From: Thermincola carboxydiphila
GTDB lineage: Bacteria; Bacillota; Thermincolia; Thermincolales; UBA2595
Assembly: GCA_016841325.1 (NCBI GenBank)
Contig: JAENZJ010000029.1
Span: forward strand, 1 to 38,826
Length of the DNA: 38,826 nucleotides
Reading direction: 5' to 3'
Numbering within the stretch: the first letter of the stretch is position 1; each line of letters begins with the position of its first letter. Shown one piece after another: positions 7,574-33,745 of the stretch. The notes under the pieces are model-generated. The model saw nothing but the letters and a program-made list of their open reading frames with translations, was not told where the DNA came from and searched no databases. A program made the translations under genes and the position numbers.

Positions 7574-10219
7574 ATGGAGATTATAGTCAGCCATAACAAT
7601 ACAGATTTTGATGGACTGGCTTCAATGATAGCGGCCAAAAAGCTCTTTCCTGATGCTGAGCTGGTTTACAGCGGAAAATTGCAGCGGAATGTCAGGGAAT
7701 TCATGTCCCTGCATAAGGATACTTTTAATTTCCGCCTGGCACGTGATATTGATTTTAAAGAAGTGAACAGGCTTATTCTGGTTGACACCAAAGGCGTTTC
7801 CAGGATTGGTGAAGTTCGTGAGGTCCTGGAGAATAAGGACCTCGAAGTGCACATATATGACCACCACCCGTCTACTGATGATGATATCAGGGGATCACGG
7901 GAGGTAATTGCTGAGGTGGGTGCGGCGACCACTCTCCTGGTGGAGATAATGAAGGAACAGGACATTGACATTAACCCTTTTGAGGCTACGGTGTTTGCCC
8001 TGGGGATTTATGAAGATACTGACTGCCTGACCTTTACCAGTACAACTTCCAGAGATGCCGAAGCTGTTGCTTACCTGCTGTCCAAAGGGGCCAAGCTGCC
8101 GGTAGTCTCTGAATTTATTGACAGGCCTCTGTCTGAACAGCAAAAAAACTTGTTAAACAAACTCATTGTGGCTTCAGAGTCATATGATATAAATGGGGTG
8201 AAAGTCCTTATTACCAGTGGGGAAATCGGGGAATATGTCGGAGGACTGGCTTTATTGGTGCACAAGATGGTTGATATCTCCAATGCTGATGTGGCTATAG
8301 CGGCTGTCCTTATGGATGACCGGGTCCACATTGTGGGCCGAAGCCAGGACAGGGCGGTGGATGTGTCCCGGATTCTGGCAGGTTTTAACGGCGGCGGGCA
8401 TGCTATGGCGGCATCGGCAACTGTCCGTGACGGGAATGTCAGGAATATCATTAATAAAATAAAAACCCTGCTCCGGGAAAATGTCAGGCCTGAAGTTACC
8501 GCAGAGGACATCATGTCTGCCCCTGTAAAAACAGTTACCCTTGACACTACAATCGAAGAAGCAGGCAAGATATTACTGCGGTATGGTCATACAGGACTTC
8601 CGGTTGTTGACGGCCAGAAAATGGTTGGCATCATTTCCCGGAGGGACATTGATAAAGCTAAGCACCATGGTCTGGGCCATGCACCTGTAAAAGGATTTAT
8701 GTCCCGGAGGGTGATAACGATTTCGGGAAAGACCACTCTGCCGGAGATACAGCACCTGATGATTGACCATAACATTGGCAGGCTTCCGGTAATTGATAAT
8801 GGCCGTATTACGGGGATAGTGTCGCGGACAGATGTATTAAGATCCCTGCACGGGGAACATTACCCGGAAAAATATGAGCGGATATATAATATTACACAGG
8901 TAACCGGGGGCAATGGTTCCGACAACCTGAAAAACCTGATGGCAGCAAACCTCTCCGGTCCTGTCAGGGACCTGCTCGGCCAGATAAGCTACCTGGCTGA
9001 CCGGGAAGGATACCGTGTCTTTGTGGTTGGCGGATTTGTCAGGGACCTTATCCTTGGTGTGGAAAATCTGGATATAGACTTGGTGGTTGAAGGGGACGGG
9101 CCCGGTTTTGCCCGTTTTCTTGCCGGGTTCCTCTGCGGCAGGGTCAGGGTCCATGACAAATTCGGTACTGCTATGGTGATCCTCCATAATAATTTCCGTA
9201 TTGATGTGGCCACTGCCAGGACGGAATATTACGAATACCCGGCAGCGCTGCCAAAAGTAGAGGTATCATCACTGAAACAGGACCTTTACAGGCGTGACTT
9301 CACCATTAATGCCATGGCAGTCACCCTGAGCGTCAGGAATTTCGGTAAACTGGTGGATTATTTTGGGGGCAGGCGTGACCTGGAAGAAGGAATTATCAGG
9401 GTTCTGTATAATCTTAGTTTTGTAGAGGACCCCACCAGGATACTGAGGGCAGTCCGTTTTGAACAGAGGTATGGCTTCAGGATTGAAAATCAGACCCTTT
9501 CCCTGATTAAAAGGGCAATTAAAGCCAAGATGCTGGCAAAACTGTCAGCTGACAGGGTCAGGGAAGAACTGAAACATATCCTTGGAGAAGCCTCACCTGT
9601 AGGGGCAATTCTCAGGATGAGTGAACTGAATATATGGCCTTTTATCCTTCCGGCTGCCAATACGGGTGAGGAGTCCCTGGAAATTTTGCAGAGGCTGCCT
9701 TCGGCAATAGAATTTGTCGATACTGCCTGTGGCGGCCGGAAACTGAATACCTGGATCCTTTACCTGGGGGTTCTGGTAAGGGAGACCGGGTGCCAGGTAC
9801 CCCTTGTAGATGAGAAACTCAGGCTAAGCAAGGAAGAACAGAAGAAAATGACAGAATTGCTGTGCCTGTGTCCTGAAGTTATCAGAAGAATTTCCGGTAA
9901 GAAACCAATGAGGATGAGTGAGATTGCTGCAGTGGTACGGGAATTGTCCGGTGAAGGTTTTGCCTTTATCCTGGCTGTTGCCGGTGAGGAAGTTGTCACT
10001 GAGCGCATTAAAAATTACCTCGCCCGGGCCAGGCACAATAAATTGCTGATAAACGGAGAAGATATAAAGGGGCTGGGATACCGGCCCGGTCCGTATTTTA
10101 AGGAAGCCCTTGATGCTGTCAGGGATGCCCGCCTTGACGGTAAAGTTGCCACCAGGGAGGACGAATTAAGGTTTGTATCTGCATTTCTCGACGGGTTGGG
10201 GGTTACCAGGACCCAATAA
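7574..10219 (+). CDS. DHH-CBS-CBS-tRNA nucleotidyltransferase/poly(A) polymerase fusion
   Basis: This 881-residue protein joins three modules. First, a DHH/DHHA1 phosphodiesterase-type domain: DFDG at residues 11-14, DHH at about 96-98, and GGGHAMAAS near 272. Second, two CBS domains (about 308-365 and 370-425; IMSAPV and FMSRRV begin them). Third, a class II tRNA nucleotidyltransferase: GGFVRD near 485, catalytic DIDLV near 499, RRDFTINAM near 572, EDPTRILRAVRFE near 617, then a helical tail. This architecture is known from A-adding or CCA-adding enzymes in some deep-branching and clostridial bacteria. The nucleotidyltransferase part completes or repairs the CCA end of tRNA; the DHH part may hydrolyse short RNA or a nucleotide; the CBS pair probably senses adenylates (inference). 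A consensus -10 TATAAT lies at 7540-7545. Confidence 0.9.
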   Translation: MEIIVSHNNTDFDGLASMIAAKKLFPDAELVYSGKLQRNVREFMSLHKDTFNFRLARDIDFKEVNRLILVDTKGVSRIGEVREVLENKDLEVHIYDHHPSTDDDIRGSREVIAEVGAATTLLVEIMKEQDIDINPFEATVFALGIYEDTDCLTFTSTTSRDAEAVAYLLSKGAKLPVVSEFIDRPLSEQQKNLLNKLIVASESYDINGVKVLITSGEIGEYVGGLALLVHKMVDISNADVAIAAVLMDDRVHIVGRSQDRAVDVSRILAGFNGGGHAMAASATVRDGNVRNIINKIKTLLRENVRPEVTAEDIMSAPVKTVTLDTTIEEAGKILLRYGHTGLPVVDGQKMVGIISRRDIDKAKHHGLGHAPVKGFMSRRVITISGKTTLPEIQHLMIDHNIGRLPVIDNGRITGIVSRTDVLRSLHGEHYPEKYERIYNITQVTGGNGSDNLKNLMAANLSGPVRDLLGQISYLADREGYRVFVVGGFVRDLILGVENLDIDLVVEGDGPGFARFLAGFLCGRVRVHDKFGTAMVILHNNFRIDVATARTEYYEYPAALPKVEVSSLKQDLYRRDFTINAMAVTLSVRNFGKLVDYFGGRRDLEEGIIRVLYNLSFVEDPTRILRAVRFEQRYGFRIENQTLSLIKRAIKAKMLAKLSADRVREELKHILGEASPVGAILRMSELNIWPFILPAANTGEESLEILQRLPSAIEFVDTACGGRKLNTWILYLGVLVRETGCQVPLVDEKLRLSKEEQKKMTELLCLCPEVIRRISGKKPMRMSEIAAVVRELSGEGFAFILAVAGEEVVTERIKNYLARARHNKLLINGEDIKGLGYRPGPYFKEALDAVRDARLDGKVATREDELRFVSAFLDGLGVTRTQ

Positions 10220-13511: not shown

Positions 13512-13896
13512 TTCCTTGAAGACAATCGCTGTTGTCGGACTGTCTAATAAGCCCGACAGGTCAAGCTACACTGTGGCCAAATACCTGCAGAACTGCGGGT
13601 ATCGCATTATTCCGGTTAATCCCACAGTTGACAGTGTCCTTGGAGAAAAGGCATATCCTGATATTGACTCAATTCCGGCAGACACTATTATTGATGTGGT
13701 GGATATTTTCCGCAAGCCGGAGGCTGTGATGCCATTTGTAAGGCAGGCGATAAACAGGGGTGATGTCAGGGTCATCTGGATGCAGGAAGGTGTTATCAAT
13801 GAAGGTGCAGCCGAAGCTGCACGCAATGCAGGGCTTGAAGTGGTCATGGACAAATGCATCCTTAAGGAACACCAGAAGTGCAATCTTAACTATTAA
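13501..13896 (+). CDS. CoA-binding domain protein (YccU-like)
   Basis: This 131-residue Rossmann-fold protein has AVVGLSNKPDRSSYTVAKYL near the N-terminus, RIIPVNPT, VIWMQEGV and a C-terminal DKCILKEHQ. These are the conserved segments of the CoA_binding_2 (YccU/YneT) family, which binds coenzyme A or a similar nucleotide; the cellular role is not known. The ATG at 13501 is preferred because GGAAGGTG lies just upstream. The frame stays open to 13354 inside scpB, but that part shows no family similarity. It closes the trpS-scpA-scpB gene run; no clear hairpin terminator follows, only a short tandem repeat. Confidence 0.88.
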   Translation: MDFDSLKTIAVVGLSNKPDRSSYTVAKYLQNCGYRIIPVNPTVDSVLGEKAYPDIDSIPADTIIDVVDIFRKPEAVMPFVRQAINRGDVRVIWMQEGVINEGAAEAARNAGLEVVMDKCILKEHQKCNLNY

Positions 13897-13943
13897 CTGT
13901 CTCCAAAACCACTATTAACTGTCTCCAAAACCACTATTTACTG
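13889..13943. repeat. 22-bp tandem duplication plus a degenerate third copy
   Basis: The unit ACTATTAACTGTCTCCAAAA+CC occurs exactly at 13889-13910 and 13911-13932, with a decayed third copy starting at 13933. The first copy covers the stop codon of the CoA-binding protein gene. The rest of the 277-base gap up to 14173 is AT-rich and holds no gene or RNA that I can support. Confidence 0.85.
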
Positions 13944-14173
13944 CTCCGAAACTCTTCATGCCCACAGCAGCTATGAATTTTCAATTCTCATTTTTCTGTC
14001 CCCTCTGCTGAAAGTCAGAAAAAACAAAGTCACTGTATATTAAACCTTTAACGTGATGTGGAAAAAGCAATATTTTAATACTAAAACAGCAATAATTCGA
14101 AAGCATTACTGTTTCCTTTGGTGGTAAAGTTAAATTGATAATTTATTACATAAAACAGATGGGAGGAAGATGA

Positions 14174-28345: not shown

Positions 28346-30115
28346 TCACATCATTGAAAGCTGTTTTTGTCCGTTCTGGTATTCCTTTTTCACCCGGCTG
28401 ACGATGCCAATCAGGTTATTTCTGTCATTGTCATCAACTATATATGTGTTACCTTTTCCAGCTTCGGCCAGGAGGGGAAGGAACTCGTGATTCGGGTCTA
28501 TCCCGATACAGATAAAATGTATTTTTTGTTGGGCAATCATTGCAGCTGCTTTAATTGCATCTTCTATGGGGTTGGTTGTCCACAGGGGATAATTGGGAAT
28601 TCCGTCGGTTATCAGTATCAGCAAGGGATTGCGGGGCCGTTCTCTCTTAAACATTTCGACAGTTGTTTTAATCCCATGGGCCAGTGGGGTTAACCCGCCC
28701 GGGACTATTTTTGACAGTCCGCTGTGCAGCTCGTCATAACTGCGGGTAAAGGGCACCTGGACCTTAGCCTGTCTTTCCTGGAAGGTAACCAGTGCTACCT
28801 TTTCCCGGCTGTTTAAGAGCAGGTACTCGGCAACATTGCCGACCGCCCTGATGCGGTCACCAGCCATACTCCCGCTGCAGTCAACCAGGAGGCAGGTATC
28901 TACGGGTGCATAGGACTTTTTGGCATACACCCTGAGATCATTTACAGTTATTTTTATGGAAGAGCTCCCGGAGAGAAATGTTCTCCTGGCTGCTTCAACA
29001 ACTGTTTCCGGTACTGCTATTTCTCCTTTCCAGGACATGGGCTCTGATGGTGCCACAACTTTACGCCTGTTGGGAAATTGCTTTTCTTTTGACTTCAGGT
29101 GTGAATAACGGAATGACTGAAACCTTGGCTGAGTGTGCCTGAACTGCCTGATACATTTTCGTATCTCCGCGGCCAGTTCTTTCTTATGTTTCTTTAAAAA
29201 CTCCTGCATTTCATGACCAGTATCTGTAAGGGTATATCCAAAGAGTGTCTGTTTGACTATGTCGTTTTTTAAAAGTTGGACCATAATTTCATCTAGTTCT
29301 TTTTTATTTTGGTGCGGTCCACCCAGTTTAAAATTCCTGACCGGGGAAAGATACTTAAAGAAATCCACCACTGCTTCAATGCTGCCGAGGCGCATGGCCA
29401 GGCTGTTGAACACCTGAAGCATGTTCTGGTATCTCAATGACTCCGAAAGGCTTTTGGAGACAGGGGGAAGGTATAAAGTGGCCTCACTATTGGCTGCCCC
29501 TTCGTCGAACCGGCCATAGTGGATAATCTTTATCACCTTGCGGAGCTGGGCGCCCTGGTAAAGAATGGCCCGTTCAATTTCATCAATTATGCAGTAAACG
29601 AGGCTGTAATAGCGGGGCTTTAGTTTTGCCAGCAGGTGAACGTGGTTCAGGTATTTATCATCAGTGCCCCTGACGGCCTTTTGGTCAGGGTCGATGGCTG
29701 AACCGAATCCCAGGGCAGTCTGGAGGTGGATTCCCCTGGAGATGCTGGCAGCTGCCAGGTCCTGTTCTTCGGGACTCCAGTCCTGATTACGGTCAACGGT
29801 GTTCAGGTAGGCGGGGATTATCTGCCTGATGCGGTTGGCCACATCGACCTGGTTTATTTCCGCGGTATTATGAAGGACATCTACGTGAACAACCTTTCCT
29901 GGTTCTTCAAGGTTGAAGTAGTGCTGACCGGCATCCCTGTCCCTGGAAATACCGATTTTTCCCAATGACCCGGTGGACTCCTGATGTACCTTTTGACTTA
30001 CAACTGCCGTCGTTCCCATAATTACACCCTGGTTCATATTAAAGTATCCTGCCAGGTTTTGGGAGATTATTTTAAGTTTTTGATAGTTATACGGGGCTCT
30101 CTGATAGGCTGACAT
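28346..30115 (-). CDS. VWA domain protein, copy 1
   Basis: The 589-residue protein has a C-terminal von Willebrand factor A domain with a complete MIDAS metal site: D412-x-S-x-S in VDCSGSMAG, T476 in GGLTPLAHG, and D504 in LITDGIPN. The N-terminal ~400 residues contain a domain shared with copy 2 (SRDRDAGQHYFN, VVHVDVLHNTAEIN) and a winged-helix-like segment near residues 270-315 (LKNDIVKQTLFGYTLTDTGH). The VWA part resembles ChlD/BchD and CoxE-type adaptors that work with AAA+ ATPases. The first domain is not a known fold to me. It is the third gene of the cluster, preceded by an 11-base duplicated ribosome binding site and its own leader element, so it may be separately regulated. Confidence 0.85.
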   Translation of the reverse strand: MSAYQRAPYNYQKLKIISQNLAGYFNMNQGVIMGTTAVVSQKVHQESTGSLGKIGISRDRDAGQHYFNLEEPGKVVHVDVLHNTAEINQVDVANRIRQIIPAYLNTVDRNQDWSPEEQDLAAASISRGIHLQTALGFGSAIDPDQKAVRGTDDKYLNHVHLLAKLKPRYYSLVYCIIDEIERAILYQGAQLRKVIKIIHYGRFDEGAANSEATLYLPPVSKSLSESLRYQNMLQVFNSLAMRLGSIEAVVDFFKYLSPVRNFKLGGPHQNKKELDEIMVQLLKNDIVKQTLFGYTLTDTGHEMQEFLKKHKKELAAEIRKCIRQFRHTQPRFQSFRYSHLKSKEKQFPNRRKVVAPSEPMSWKGEIAVPETVVEAARRTFLSGSSSIKITVNDLRVYAKKSYAPVDTCLLVDCSGSMAGDRIRAVGNVAEYLLLNSREKVALVTFQERQAKVQVPFTRSYDELHSGLSKIVPGGLTPLAHGIKTTVEMFKRERPRNPLLILITDGIPNYPLWTTNPIEDAIKAAAMIAQQKIHFICIGIDPNHEFLPLLAEAGKGNTYIVDDNDRNNLIGIVSRVKKEYQNGQKQLSMM

Positions 30116-30137
30116 GACCTTTCACCGACCTTTCACC
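30116..30137 (-). repeat. Tandemly duplicated 11-base ribosome binding site
   Basis: On the minus strand GGTGAAAGGTC occurs twice in a row immediately before the ATG of VWA copy 1. Each unit carries the AAAGG ribosome binding site, giving two possible docking sites 11 bases apart. Confidence 0.85.
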
Positions 30138-30170
30138 ATATGTATTTGATACAAGACTTAGCAGTTAAAC

Positions 30171-30221
30171 AAAAAGGCCAGCGCAGCTGCTGGCCTCCGG
30201 ACTGTACGTCTCAGGACTTTT
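30171..30221 (-). promoter_or_regulatory. Conserved leader element / attenuator, copy A
   Basis: Reading on the minus strand: AAAGTCCTGAGACGT (30220-30206), a short spacer, GTCCGGAGGCCAGC, a six-base loop, GCTGGCCTTTTT. The 8-bp AGGCCAGC / GCTGGCCT stem with T-run is terminator-like. The upstream GTCC-n-GAGACGT and GTCC-n-GAG blocks also occur in copy B at 33381-33432. The element overlaps the stop codon of VWA copy 2 and lies 55 bases before VWA copy 1. Confidence 0.65.
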
Positions 30222-31959
30222 GTTTGGATATTGCCTGTCGTTCATTATGCATAATATTTATCAGGCTGCTGCGGTCAATATCTTCCACCAGGTAGTAAGT
30301 TCCCTTGCCGGCCCTGGCCAGGTCGGGAATAAACTCTCCCAGGGGGTCAATTCCAATAGCACTGAATCTTATCTTATGTCTGGGAAAGCTGTGGCATACG
30401 TTTACTGCATCGGCCACAGGGTCCAGGCTGACCAGTGGTGTATTTGGCCTGCCGTCTGTGATTAGAACCAGGAGTGGGTTTTTTGGTTTTGAATGTCTGA
30501 TGAGCTGCAGACCTGTCTCCAGGCCTTTGGCCAGGGGTGTAAGCCCATAGGGTACCAGTCTGTTAAGACCGGAGTGTATATATGAATAATTCCTGGTAAA
30601 AGCGGTTTTTACCTCGGCATCCCTTTCCTGAAACGAGACCAGGGCAACCTTATCCCGTGTGGTCAGCAGTAGGTGTTCGACAACCCACCTTACTGCGGAA
30701 ATCCTGGCACCCTTCATGCTTCCGCTGCAGTCAGCCACAATACATATATCTACAGGAGCGCGGGATTTTTTCGGGCAGACCATGATGTCACTGTCATTGA
30801 CGCACAGCGCCCCATTATTTTCAAGGTAACTGTGTTTGGCTGCATTGATTACTGTTTCCGGAACTGCAATAGGATTAGTGCTGTTAGATATATTGCGATG
30901 GACCGTTTTTTTGTAGTCATAGTTTATAATTTTCTTAACCGGGCAGTGAGCCGGGAATCCTGAAGGGGTTAATCCGGATTTTACAGGAACCTGCCTGATA
31001 GCTTTTCGGAGTTGTACAGAGAGTTCTTTTTCGTGACGGTGCAGGAACTGTTTTAGTTCATGGCCGCTTGCTGTAAAGGAGTAACCCGGCTTTTTTTTGG
31101 TGACCAAACCCAGTTTTTCCATGTCATGGAGCAGGGACTCCATGGAGGGATTAGTCTTGGTCAAAACCTTCAGGGTTATGAATTTTAAAGGTGAGACCGC
31201 CTGAAAAAAAATTGATAGTGTTTCCAGACTGCCAACCTTAAGTGCAGCCGAGAAAAGTGCCTGGAAATGATTCTGAAACCTAACTTCGGGAGGGGTACCG
31301 GGTTCACTGAAGGTAACCGGCACCCCTAAGGGAAAATTTTCGAATTCAGTCCTTTCTGCGGGACGGTGAATAATGTTTGAAACCGGTCTTAGCCTGATGC
31401 CTTGATAGATTATAGTCTTTTCGGTCTGGTCAACAATGGAATATATCAGCCCCAGGTGTTTTTGGGGGAGCCTGGCAAGAATGTGGACATGACTCATGAT
31501 AATGCCTCCGGAGAGCCCTGGCGTTTTAAATGGTTTGAGGACTGTACCTTCACCTGTGGCTGTTTTCAGGTGGATCCTCTGGGCCAGGTTGAGAGTAAAT
31601 GCTTCGCGTTCGATGCTGAGTCTTTCTTCTTTACCCTCAACAAGGTCAAGGTACTCGGCAATAGATACCAGGATGCGGTTTGCCAGGTCAAAGATATTGA
31701 TTTCTGCAGGTTTGTGAAAAACATCAATATGGACTACCTGATTATCTTCAACCATGTTCAGGAATACCTTGCCGGCATCCCGGTCAGAATACACCAGGAC
31801 AGTGCCTTCGGCATCCCTGGGTTCAAAATGGAAATTATGACTGACAACTGAACAGCTTCCCAGGACCAGTCCCTGGTTTGCCTCAAGATGGTCAGCAAGC
31901 GCTCTTCCCAGTGTAATCACCCGGGAACGCTGATAGGTATTTTCAAGGTCCTTTTTCAT
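30211..31959 (-). CDS. VWA domain protein, copy 2
   Basis: The 582-residue paralogue of copy 1 shares the same layout: an N-terminal domain (SDRDAGKVFLN, VVHIDVFHKPAEIN at about 58-90), a middle helical region, a winged-helix-like segment near 275-312 (MEKLGLVTKKKPGYSFTASGH), and a C-terminal VWA domain with intact MIDAS (D410-C-S-G-S, T474, D502). Similar motifs over the whole length show gene duplication, yet the two have diverged strongly in the first 50 residues and the linker before the VWA domain. It starts 29 bases after the AAA+ gene and so is co-transcribed with it. A role as substrate adaptor of the ATPase is inferred from ChlI/ChlD and MoxR/VWA precedents. Confidence 0.85.
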   Translation of the reverse strand: MKKDLENTYQRSRVITLGRALADHLEANQGLVLGSCSVVSHNFHFEPRDAEGTVLVYSDRDAGKVFLNMVEDNQVVHIDVFHKPAEINIFDLANRILVSIAEYLDLVEGKEERLSIEREAFTLNLAQRIHLKTATGEGTVLKPFKTPGLSGGIIMSHVHILARLPQKHLGLIYSIVDQTEKTIIYQGIRLRPVSNIIHRPAERTEFENFPLGVPVTFSEPGTPPEVRFQNHFQALFSAALKVGSLETLSIFFQAVSPLKFITLKVLTKTNPSMESLLHDMEKLGLVTKKKPGYSFTASGHELKQFLHRHEKELSVQLRKAIRQVPVKSGLTPSGFPAHCPVKKIINYDYKKTVHRNISNSTNPIAVPETVINAAKHSYLENNGALCVNDSDIMVCPKKSRAPVDICIVADCSGSMKGARISAVRWVVEHLLLTTRDKVALVSFQERDAEVKTAFTRNYSYIHSGLNRLVPYGLTPLAKGLETGLQLIRHSKPKNPLLVLITDGRPNTPLVSLDPVADAVNVCHSFPRHKIRFSAIGIDPLGEFIPDLARAGKGTYYLVEDIDRSSLINIMHNERQAISKQKS

Positions 31960-31988
31960 AAAGACACCTTCTTTTTAATTTAACTCTC

Positions 31989-33338
31989 TCAGGGATTAAG
32001 GTTCTTGTCAGTCCTGATAAGCTCATTTAAATTGATTTCACTTATCCTTTTGAGATCCGTATTCTTGCCGGAGGCCTCGGTAGCTGCCGGGGATTCCGTC
32101 TGGCTGTTGGCGGCTGAGCTTATTTCATCCTGCTCCTTCTTCAGTCCAAGGGAATTTAGCATCCGGTCAACAAATGACCTGCTGTCAGCAGGGTGTTTTT
32201 CACCAGCATCCAGGGGTTCAGGATCAGGGGTGACCGCAAGGGTTTCATCTTCCCGGACCGGTTGTCTGGATACCGTGCCTGCCGGAGATGAGGAATGTCC
32301 GGGAGATGAATTCATTATCCTTGTCAGTGTTTCCATGTCTACCCGGTGACGCAGGGCCAGGGGCAGGACTTTGATAACATCACTTACCAGGACGGTATCC
32401 CGCTGCCTGAGGGCACAGTTTAGCAGGGCGGCATGCTGAATGGCTTCAATAGCCCGGAAACTTTCAATATCATACTTGATATACATTCTGGCAATATAAT
32501 TCCTGAGGAAGTCAGGCAGGTCCAGGCCGGCGTGTTTTTTGGCAATACCCTCAAGTTCTCTGCGTGCCCGGATATTGCGTGCCTGAATGTCCAGCGGGTT
32601 CCCCTTCTCATGACTGCGCACGTGGCTGGCTTGTTTCAGGATACTGGCAATTGCGTCAGGGTCATCGGTCCTTTTCATATCAATTACCAGGTCAAAACGG
32701 TCGGCCAGCTGACGCCTTATTTCCTGCAGCGGACCGGGTTCCTCGTCAGGGTTGGAAGCAGCCCATACAGAAACCTGGACAGGAATTTCCACAACCGGCA
32801 GTCCTGTTTCCTCGATCTGGACACGGCCCGGTTTGGTTCCCATAACATCAAGGAGGACATCGGTGAGTTCCGGTGAGGTATCAGCGAGCCTGTTGATTTC
32901 ATCAACAAAAATGATACCCCGGTGTGCCTGGGGGATGATACCCGGTAGAATTGCTGCGGTAGGATTGGTCCTGTCGGTGATCCTGGCCAGGTCAATACTT
33001 CCGACAATGGTCCCTATCTTGGCAGAATGGGAAATTTCCAAAAAGGGCATTGGAATTTCTTCAGTTTCCAGGAGGGCAATCTCTTCAGGGGAAAGGTCCC
33101 TGTGTGCGGGGCAGTGTGGCTTTTGTGGGTCACAATTATACAGGCAGCCCTTTATTCTGGTTATCCGGGGGAATATATCCCTGGCTGCACGCATAATAGT
33201 GGTTTTTCCTGTTCCCCTGAGCCCTTCTGCATGGAGGTGGAGGGGAACCCCCCATCTAGAAGAGATGATGGTCATTTCGACAACGTCAAAAAGGGTGCTG
33301 TTGCCCTCATGACGGGCTAACTGCAGGTAATTTTTCAC
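31989..33338 (-). CDS. AAA+ ATPase, ChlI/MoxR-like
   Basis: The 449-residue protein has Walker A GLRGTGKTT (residues 39-47), Walker B GIIFVDEIN (DE at 146-147), sensor-type SVWAASNPDEEPG, and GSIDLARIT, close to the magnesium-chelatase I subunit (BchI). The N-terminal cysteine cluster GCLYNCDPQKPHCP (Cys 65, 69, 76) also has its counterpart in that family. The last ~110 residues are an acidic, low-complexity tail ending in SEINLNELIRTDKN, absent from BchI and possibly the contact for the VWA partners. No BchH-type chelatase is encoded in the window, so chlorophyll metabolism is not supported; remodelling of a protein or metal-enzyme complex is more likely. The GTG at 33338 follows AGAGGAGG. 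Confidence 0.87.
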   Translation of the reverse strand: MKNYLQLARHEGNSTLFDVVEMTIISSRWGVPLHLHAEGLRGTGKTTIMRAARDIFPRITRIKGCLYNCDPQKPHCPAHRDLSPEEIALLETEEIPMPFLEISHSAKIGTIVGSIDLARITDRTNPTAAILPGIIPQAHRGIIFVDEINRLADTSPELTDVLLDVMGTKPGRVQIEETGLPVVEIPVQVSVWAASNPDEEPGPLQEIRRQLADRFDLVIDMKRTDDPDAIASILKQASHVRSHEKGNPLDIQARNIRARRELEGIAKKHAGLDLPDFLRNYIARMYIKYDIESFRAIEAIQHAALLNCALRQRDTVLVSDVIKVLPLALRHRVDMETLTRIMNSSPGHSSSPAGTVSRQPVREDETLAVTPDPEPLDAGEKHPADSRSFVDRMLNSLGLKKEQDEISSAANSQTESPAATEASGKNTDLKRISEINLNELIRTDKNLNP

Positions 33339-33355
33339 CAAGAATCCTCCTCTCG

Positions 33356-33432
33356 GGAGACGTCTGCATGCTGCCAAAAGAAAAGGCCAGCAATAAGCTG
33401 GCCTCTGGACTCAATAAACGTCTCCGGACTTT
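33356..33432 (-). promoter_or_regulatory. Conserved leader element / attenuator, copy B, with pairing to the RBS region
   Basis: On the minus strand: AAAGTCCGGAGACGT (33432-33418), then GTCCAGAGGCCAGC, a five-base loop, GCTGGCCTTTT (33397-33381). It matches copy A nearly base for base outside the loops. GGAGACGT at 33425-33418 is exactly complementary to ACGTCTCC at 33363-33356, just upstream of the AGGAGG of the AAA+ gene, so two exclusive folds can be drawn: terminator, or long-range pairing. A third GTCC-n-GAG word lies at 33448-33441. Confidence 0.6.
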
Positions 33433-33526
33433 GAAAATACTCTGGACGATAAAATATATTTACTTTTATTTTTTGTATTCGTCGCAGATCATATTTTTCC
33501 TTCCTGTGATTGTAAAATAAATCAGG

Positions 33527-33745
33527 AGTTAGGAGACAGAAGTCAGGCGACAGGAGACAGAAGTCAGGAGATATAAGACAGGGGAGTGGACAAGAGCTGG
33601 TGCTCAATACGGCATTGATTTTATCCCGGAACTTCTCTATAATTTTCATTATAACGTTACCTATTGACTATTTTTGTACGTACTGTAATTGCAAACGGAG
33701 CCTTAATCTTACTGACTTCTGACTCCTGAATTCTGACTACTCCCT
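33527..33745. repeat. GGAGACAGAAGTCAGG repeats in inverted arrangement
   Basis: The 409-base gap between the AAA+ gene leader and lrgA holds no gene I can support. AGGAGACAGAAGTCAGG occurs exactly at 33531-33547 and 33552-33568 (21-base period, with degenerate neighbours), and CTGACTTCTGACTCCTGA at 33712-33729 with TTCTGACTACTCC at 33731-33743 is the inverted form. The ~140 bases between them are AT-rich. The arrangement looks like a non-coding interspersed repeat with inverted ends. Confidence 0.7.

Follow-up and report, generated by a model that had tools for sequence, protein, structure and literature searches.

The combination of an AAA+ ATPase with a VWA protein is already of a known kind. 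In the NorQ/NorD system, the VWA protein binds the ATPase ring and its metal ion-dependent adhesion site (MIDAS) grips an acidic site on the client (PMC9976466), while ChlI itself falls within the wider MoxR clade (PMC7159879). RavA-ViaA is described as acting on respiratory complexes. The literature searched, mostly outside the subscription journals, contained no paper on the family considered here, and its coverage of related subjects consisted of general reviews together with work on NorQD, RavA, and conflict systems. Here, we analyze a three-gene operon of this general design from Thermincola carboxydiphila (GenBank assembly GCA_016841325.1, contig JAENZJ010000029.1), where the whole stretch of 38,826 nucleotides that was analyzed is referred to as the window. 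An earlier note on this DNA had placed three genes on its minus strand and the open reading frame (ORF) coordinates were confirmed: a ChlI-like AAA+ ATPase of 449 amino acids (31989..33338), VWA-A (30211..31959, 582 amino acids), and VWA-B (28346..30115, 589 amino acids), both VWA proteins being composed of an N-terminal domain, a winged-helix-like segment, and a VWA domain with a MIDAS. The latter two are indeed paralogues of approximately 585 residues, with 39% identity. With a probability of about one half, we propose that the product of the operon is a maturation machine that remodels its clients at the expense of ATP, built on the ChlI/MoxR AAA+ plus VWA plan but no longer engaged in tetrapyrrole metallation. 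We consider the family to be a new variant because of its N-terminal domain, its ChlI-like but chelatase-free ATPase, and its leader.

Assignment of the ATPase to the ChlI/MoxR type with intact motifs was borne out by both its Walker motifs and its family scores. Across the family, there is almost no variation in Walker A (GLRGTGKTT), Walker B (IIFVDE), or the sensor-1 Asn. The Pfam domains AAA_lid_2 and Mg_chelatase are matched above cut-off, and the closest solved relative is ChlI (PDB 8osf). The MoxR-type Pfam domain AAA_3 was not matched at E values of up to 1. Against the two class I chelatase models, the protein scored 157.9 bits (TIGR02442, cut-off 779 bits) and 114.1 bits (TIGR02030, cut-off 467 bits), both far below the equivalog cut-offs. 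The ATPase matches one end of TIGR02442, the ChlI/ChlD-type cobaltochelatase subunit, and the VWA proteins match the other; the ATPase also has a Cys-rich insert after Walker A in common with this subunit and BchI/BchD, whereas here the two halves are split over separate genes and the VWA protein carries an N-terminal part of ~320 residues without an AAA domain. Where aligned ChlI types have GD(K/R)GTxKST and DEVNLL, this ATPase has GLRGTGKTT and DEINRL, and its Cys/His motif differs as well. The latter is a putative zinc knuckle, C-x3-C-x5-H-C-x2-H, at residues 65-79 (33102..33146, minus strand), in which C65, C69, C76, and H79 are conserved in 56/56 sequences and H75 in 55/56.

The absence of a chelatase target beside the operon could be extended to the entire genome. 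A search for CobN/BchH (PF02514, E 1e-30), for which control genomes gave the expected results, found no match in the genome holding the window (G000; other G codes denote genomes of relatives and L codes denote loci). The same search was included in a survey of 299 genomes of the phylum for the ATPase, the VWA N-terminal domain, the box element described below, and CobN. CobN was present in 9/95 genomes with the AAA-VWA module and in 22/204 others (p 0.84; relatedness is uncontrolled in this and all other co-occurrence comparisons given here, i.e. for the module, the element, CobN, Spo0A, and the CxC/CxxC protein). ChlI-type ATPases from annotated records, on the other hand, mostly adjoin cobN or bchD. 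Because the genome has no CobN/BchH, the chelatase cut-offs are widely missed, and the presence of CobN is unrelated to that of the module, we conclude that the module is not a chelatase. A pair on a Haloterrigena plasmid (L214, 1259-4433) is possibly another chelatase-free pair, as it likewise consists of separate VWA and ChlI-like ATPase genes without an adjoining CobN, with three mycofactocin-coupled dehydrogenases alongside. It differs in that the VWA gene comes first, the 31% identity extends over the ATPase only, and the N-terminal domain was undetected at the E cut-off used.

Both VWA proteins have an intact MIDAS, with D412-S414-S416, T476, and D504 invariant in all 60 full-length homologues over which VWA residue conservation was counted. 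The VWA domain of VWA-B (residues 408-564; 28424..28894, minus strand) matches PF13519 (1.6e-12) and PF00092 (1.7e-11), and each VWA protein aligns with the VWA half of TIGR02442, BchD (2x31) being the closest solved relative. Neither Pfam nor TIGR family searches found an AAA match in these proteins, which, with their different N-terminal domain, depart from the chelatase D subunit composed of AAA, acidic linker, and VWA. A CoxE-type assignment was rejected, as the scores for VWA_CoxE (PF05762) of 22.1 and 14.3 bits lie below its cut-off of 26.4 bits. The operon has the general AAA+/VWA design in common with RavA/ViaA and CoxD/CoxE, along with this weak resemblance to CoxE, whereas no decarboxylase or CO dehydrogenase partner is found here.

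The region that sets these VWA proteins apart is the N-terminal domain (residues 1-215 of VWA-B, 29471..30115; approximately 31315..31959 in VWA-A; both minus strand). It is common to both, as previously noted, and is unrecognized by family searches: Pfam, NCBIfam, and PDB sequence searches gave no family match, the sole PDB match of a domain profile was at chance level (E 2.2), and a Pfam scan of 49 N-terminal domains found no family common to more than three members. The suggested hidden Markov model search of this region matched no chelatase or maturation family. Apart from truncated matches and those in very long open frames, the domain was found only in ORFs of VWA length. Among the 60 homologues, S40, D61-A62-G63, H77, D79, and H82 are invariant, H44, G136, G138, H158, H160, and E181 each differ in a single homologue, and T133 is near-invariant, such that the His/Asp set is conserved as strictly as the MIDAS of the same proteins. 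These residues constitute a putative metal or active site. AlphaFold (AF2) models of the full-length VWA protein and of the N-terminal domain, built from four sequences, were poor, with predicted local distance difference test (pLDDT) values of 39 and 45, respectively, although helices and some strands of the domain reached 60-75. In the domain model, a strand (HxDxxH) is followed by two helices, three strands, the last of which carries HVH, a helix, and a strand; in this low-confidence, ferredoxin-like topology, HxD of strand 1 and HxH of strand 3 would sit on adjacent strands. Its fold matches were ferredoxin-like with Z scores of 7 or less, a very common fold type, and we claim no fold for the domain because the models are poor and such matches reflect this common arrangement. 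As for the winged-helix-like segment (residues 245-323), the idea drew support from weak PDB profile matches (S19e, Sso10a, and other winged helix-turn-helix proteins), and this is the best-modelled stretch of the AF2 model.

The long acidic C-terminal tail attributed to the ATPase is a low-complexity, mildly acidic stretch of 104 residues (18 D/E, 12 K/R, pI 4.8). It terminates in a recurring short motif, P..AR.L..L...E. At two loci (L097, 8879-11055, and L107, 9208-11345, from G213 and G237), the ATPase is paired with a VWA protein of 259-290 amino acids that has neither the N-terminal nor the winged-helix part, and there the ATPase has no C-terminal PxxARxLxxL motif. Since the motif and that part of the VWA protein are missing together, the motif may dock on the part that was lost. 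Additional ATPase copies without an adjoining VWA gene were seen at L082, L084, L087, and L088, and some of these genomes hold a complete pair elsewhere.

The ATPase and the VWA N-terminal domain were each detected in 91/299 genomes, with both present in 87 (Fisher 6e-65). Most of the cases with only one of them come from short contigs or from the ends of contigs, and two of the cases are G213 and G237, whose short VWA proteins have no N-terminal domain. The pair is thus conserved together in relatives, and this co-occurrence, along with the motifs and family scores, supports the earlier view of an active ATPase-adaptor machine with precedents in ChlI/ChlD, MoxR, and CoxD/CoxE. The recommended survey of gene neighbors in relatives yielded varied housekeeping genes and no named client. 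The neighbors vary by family, with secDF before and lapA-recJ-apt-relA-dtd after the pair in one arrangement, and PHP and RapZ genes, GerM and a LytTR regulator, FtsK and a MiaB-like gene, MnmG, or pantothenate kinase and Dus in others. Because neighborhoods differ in this manner, we consider the AAA-VWA pair to be self-contained; no recurrent third gene was found in about 55 loci. A viral collection contained just two VWA-only matches unrelated to the module, while a plasmid collection contained only BchI/cobaltochelatase-type ATPase matches and unrelated VWA matches.

The earlier note had also suggested that the two VWA paralogues either recognize different substrates or act as a hetero-complex, and the latter option has been weakened. 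The A/B duplication is confined to the family of the window, where a quick tree fully supports the A and B clades, and most other families carry one VWA protein. Within the family, VWA-A alone remains in G004 and VWA-B alone in G006, with unchanged flanking genes, which argues against an obligate A-B complex. A second copy of the system in G000 (contig C45, L027, 8090-15004) consists of one ATPase and three VWA genes in a row, and no boxes were found upstream of this cluster.

The same note had found no chelatase or metalloenzyme target beside the operon, and had mentioned neither the leader, nor the second element between the VWA genes, nor the invariant His/Asp set. The absence of any hint at a target holds for the neighboring genes but not for the leader, through which the operon is linked with a cytochrome locus. 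The leader (33339..33504, minus strand) comprises ~165 bases upstream of the ATPase gene and is common to seven family genomes. It consists of a 5' block (GGAAGGAAAAAU...ACGAAUA) and three tandem boxes of the GUCCNGAG type (GUCC[AUG]GAG) that abut a terminator hairpin and U-run finishing some 40 bases ahead of the ATPase start. In most genomes, a CGUCUCC segment after the terminator is pairable with an upstream GGAGACG or with the ribosome site. In the window, the boxes (within 33380..33448, minus strand) are CGTCCAGAG at 33448-33440, AGTCCGGAGAC at 33430-33420, and AGTCCAGAGGCCAGC at 33411-33397, the last of which runs into the hairpin GGCCAGC-TTATT-GCTGGCC-TTTTC (33403-33380). The leader folds more stably than its shuffles (z -3.95; 0/200 shuffles as stable). 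Between VWA-A and VWA-B, the three species of the genus have a second, shorter element that includes a terminator of its own (in the window AGTCCTGAGACGTACAGTCCGGAGGCCAGC-AGCTGC-GCTGGCCTTTTT; 30171..30218, minus strand), which is absent from G003, in which the VWA genes are separated by a 12-base gap. Like the protein- or metabolite-controlled terminator leaders of ANTAR, PyrR, and riboswitch systems, this leader has conserved boxes repeated in tandem immediately ahead of an intrinsic terminator, whereas it has no Rfam counterpart: no family reached gathering score, and a relaxed search returned chance-level eukaryotic, viral, or small RNA matches. The box sequence departs from the ANTAR loop rule. 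On the basis of these sequence features, expression of the operon would be conditional, through attenuation at the tandem-box terminators.

The pattern GTCCNGAG-N5..15-GTCCNGAG had nine matches in G000 and none in a reversed control. Three of these are at the AAA-VWA operon and the other six lie within 1.7 kb of a single other locus, situated after gyrA (L184 on contig C35, 7048-11408, minus strand), where they are interspersed among small CxC/CxxC proteins, small membrane proteins, and b/c-type cytochromes. A stricter box pattern was found in 26/299 genomes (control zero), nearly all of which share this arrangement, and in 16/16 examined genomes from outside the family (11 family codes), the element occurs at the same type of cytochrome locus. 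The locus encodes a CxC..CxxC protein of 50-70 amino acids, membrane proteins of 64-70 amino acids, a multiheme c-type cytochrome of ~295 amino acids, a cytochrome b of the Ni-hydrogenase/formate dehydrogenase gamma type, and, in most genomes, a NapC/NrfH-like cytochrome as well. Of 86 element copies, 78 run directly into a hairpin and T-run, and the variable base in the arm of box 1 pairs in every case with the variable base at position 2 of box 2 (A-U 71, G-U 8, G-C 7, A-C 0). The element has the appearance of an uncatalogued attenuator that is distributed over 12 bacterial families. In three genomes, it precedes a major facilitator superfamily transporter gene resembling oxalate/formate antiporters (G007, L192 8648-8913; G008, L194 8483-8713; G006, L195, minus strand, near a box at 8348 in reversed coordinates), and the box variants found there, GCCC..GGC, preserve the pairing.

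The small CxC/CxxC proteins carry the signature [RK]CxCxK..CRxCK (L184, 10308-10481 and 10746-10931, minus strand). Such a protein is encoded in 24/26 genomes with the element, the other two being 61-63% complete, compared to 16/273 of those without it (Fisher 1e-22). G004 has no cytochromes beside gyrA, yet it has the small protein and has kept the leader on its AAA operon. Therefore, we consider this protein to be a candidate trans-acting factor and a candidate RNA-binding (anti)terminator. Pfam assigned it no clear family and did not confirm a likeness to the phage Mu Com protein.

Taken together with the NorQ/NorD precedent, these features suggest how the machine might operate. The AAA+ protein would form a ring motor to which the VWA protein would bind as an adaptor, its MIDAS gripping an acidic site on the client, while the N-terminal domain with its His/Asp site, which the known systems lack, may supply client specificity or else bind or deliver a metal. 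VWA-A and VWA-B would be alternative adaptors of one ring rather than halves of one complex. The tandem-box terminators before the ATPase gene and before VWA-B would place the operon in the regulon of the cytochrome locus, such that read-through would switch the machine on together with the cytochrome respiratory module. As in NorQ/NorD, an AAA+ protein is combined with a VWA protein that has an N-terminal domain, a linker, and a C-terminal VWA domain with a MIDAS (PMC9976466), and an anaerobic respiratory setting is a proposed parallel. The differences are an ATPase that is closer to ChlI, a different N-terminal domain, and a client gene that does not adjoin. Similarly, the operon resembles the MoxR AAA+/VWA maturation pairs in having the two genes adjacent and the Walker and MIDAS motifs intact, whereas its immediate neighbors in the window are an HDOD gene and lrgAB instead of a client gene. 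Since the operon shares its element and regulon with the cytochrome locus, the likeliest client in this lineage would be a membrane respiratory complex or some other protein produced in response to the same cue, although its identity is a guess that we hold with little confidence.

Several observations weigh against this proposal. The element was found in 9/95 genomes with the module and in 17/204 others (p 0.83), so that most carriers of the module have no element, and G005, which belongs to the family, has both the element and the cytochromes but no module. Neighboring genes differ across families and none names a client, and the structural models are of low confidence (pLDDT 39 and 45). The link to the cytochromes extends no further than the family of the window and may be mere co-regulation, for which reason the client is put forward only as a hypothesis.

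Among the other explanations, a self-contained metal insertase comes first, in which D61, H77, D79, H82, H158, and H160 of the N-terminal domain form a metal site that replaces CobN/BchH and the ATPase powers the insertion of a metal or cofactor, the recipient being a protein or a small molecule. The invariant His/Asp set, the ChlI/ChlD ancestry, the Cys/His knuckle of the ATPase, and a genome without CobN would all fit, but tetrapyrrole or metallo-enzyme genes adjoin the pair in no context seen, and the lineage of G213 and G237 keeps the ATPase with a short VWA protein that lacks the whole domain; we thus view it as unlikely. In a broader and similarly improbable scheme, the N-terminal domain would be of a new metal-binding or catalytic kind, making the ChlI/VWA motor a self-contained insertase or processing enzyme, and the operon would be controlled by an RNA attenuator of a new class that is read in trans by the CxC/CxxC protein so as to coordinate respiratory cytochromes with a maturation machine. 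Next, the N-terminal domain might have an HUH- or RNase-like ferredoxin fold that, together with the winged helix, brings the motor to DNA or RNA. Both His residues of the HVH motif, which has the His-hydrophobic-His pattern of HUH endonucleases and lies on a predicted strand of the ferredoxin-like model, are conserved in 59/60 homologues, and the weak fold matches include Cas6 and the HUH transposase 2xma. However, no Tyr is conserved at 85% or more in the domain, so that the catalytic Tyr after HVH is missing, Pfam found no nuclease match, and the model is poor, its fold very common, and its top fold matches unrelated proteins, all of which leaves this idea rather improbable even with a winged helix-turn-helix-like segment in the VWA proteins. 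A role in sporulation or dormancy is less probable again. Spo0A is present in 89/91 genomes with the ATPase versus 167/208 others, a weak lead given that it is common in the phylum, and a GerM-domain gene occurs in one context, whereas no sporulation gene recurs beside the pair. The core pair also resembles that of the MoxR-vWA ternary conflict systems, whose third component is VMAP, iSTAND, FtsH, or a beta-propeller protein (PMC7159879), but with no third component or effector in about 55 loci, no PADLOC match, housekeeping contexts, and a largely family-wise inheritance, a conflict or defense system is very improbable. Lastly, a true class I chelatase (ChlI/ChlD) with its catalytic subunit encoded elsewhere, as the family resemblance of the ATPase and VWA proteins might suggest, is hardly credible and already refuted for most carriers, since CobN/BchH is missing from its own genome and from 86/95 module genomes, the scores lie far under the equivalog cut-offs, and the real ChlI-type ATPases compared mostly adjoin cobN or bchD.

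A few further features of the window should be mentioned. The ATPase gene starts with GTG, preceded by a GAGGAGG ribosome site that is kept in relatives, and this start is more likely than the TTG at 33377 given in the ORF list. VWA-A is 78% identical to its counterpart in a metagenome-assembled genome of Thermincola ferriacetica (L026). The intergenic region between lrgA and the ATPase gene holds approximately three imperfect 21-base repeats (TCAGGAGATAGGAGACAGAAG, 33522-33582), and a longer run of CTCCTGAC-type repeats is found in the same region of a related genome (L151). Elsewhere in the window, a 22-base tandem repeat (ACTATTAACTGTCTCCAAAACC) is present in three copies at 13889-13952.

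Returning to the client-remodelling machine that we favor, about 30% of the sampled genomes of the phylum carry this ATPase-adaptor pair. The leader names a regulon consisting of the cytochrome locus, the CxC/CxxC protein, and the AAA-VWA operon, which makes the targets of orphan MoxR/ChlI systems testable.

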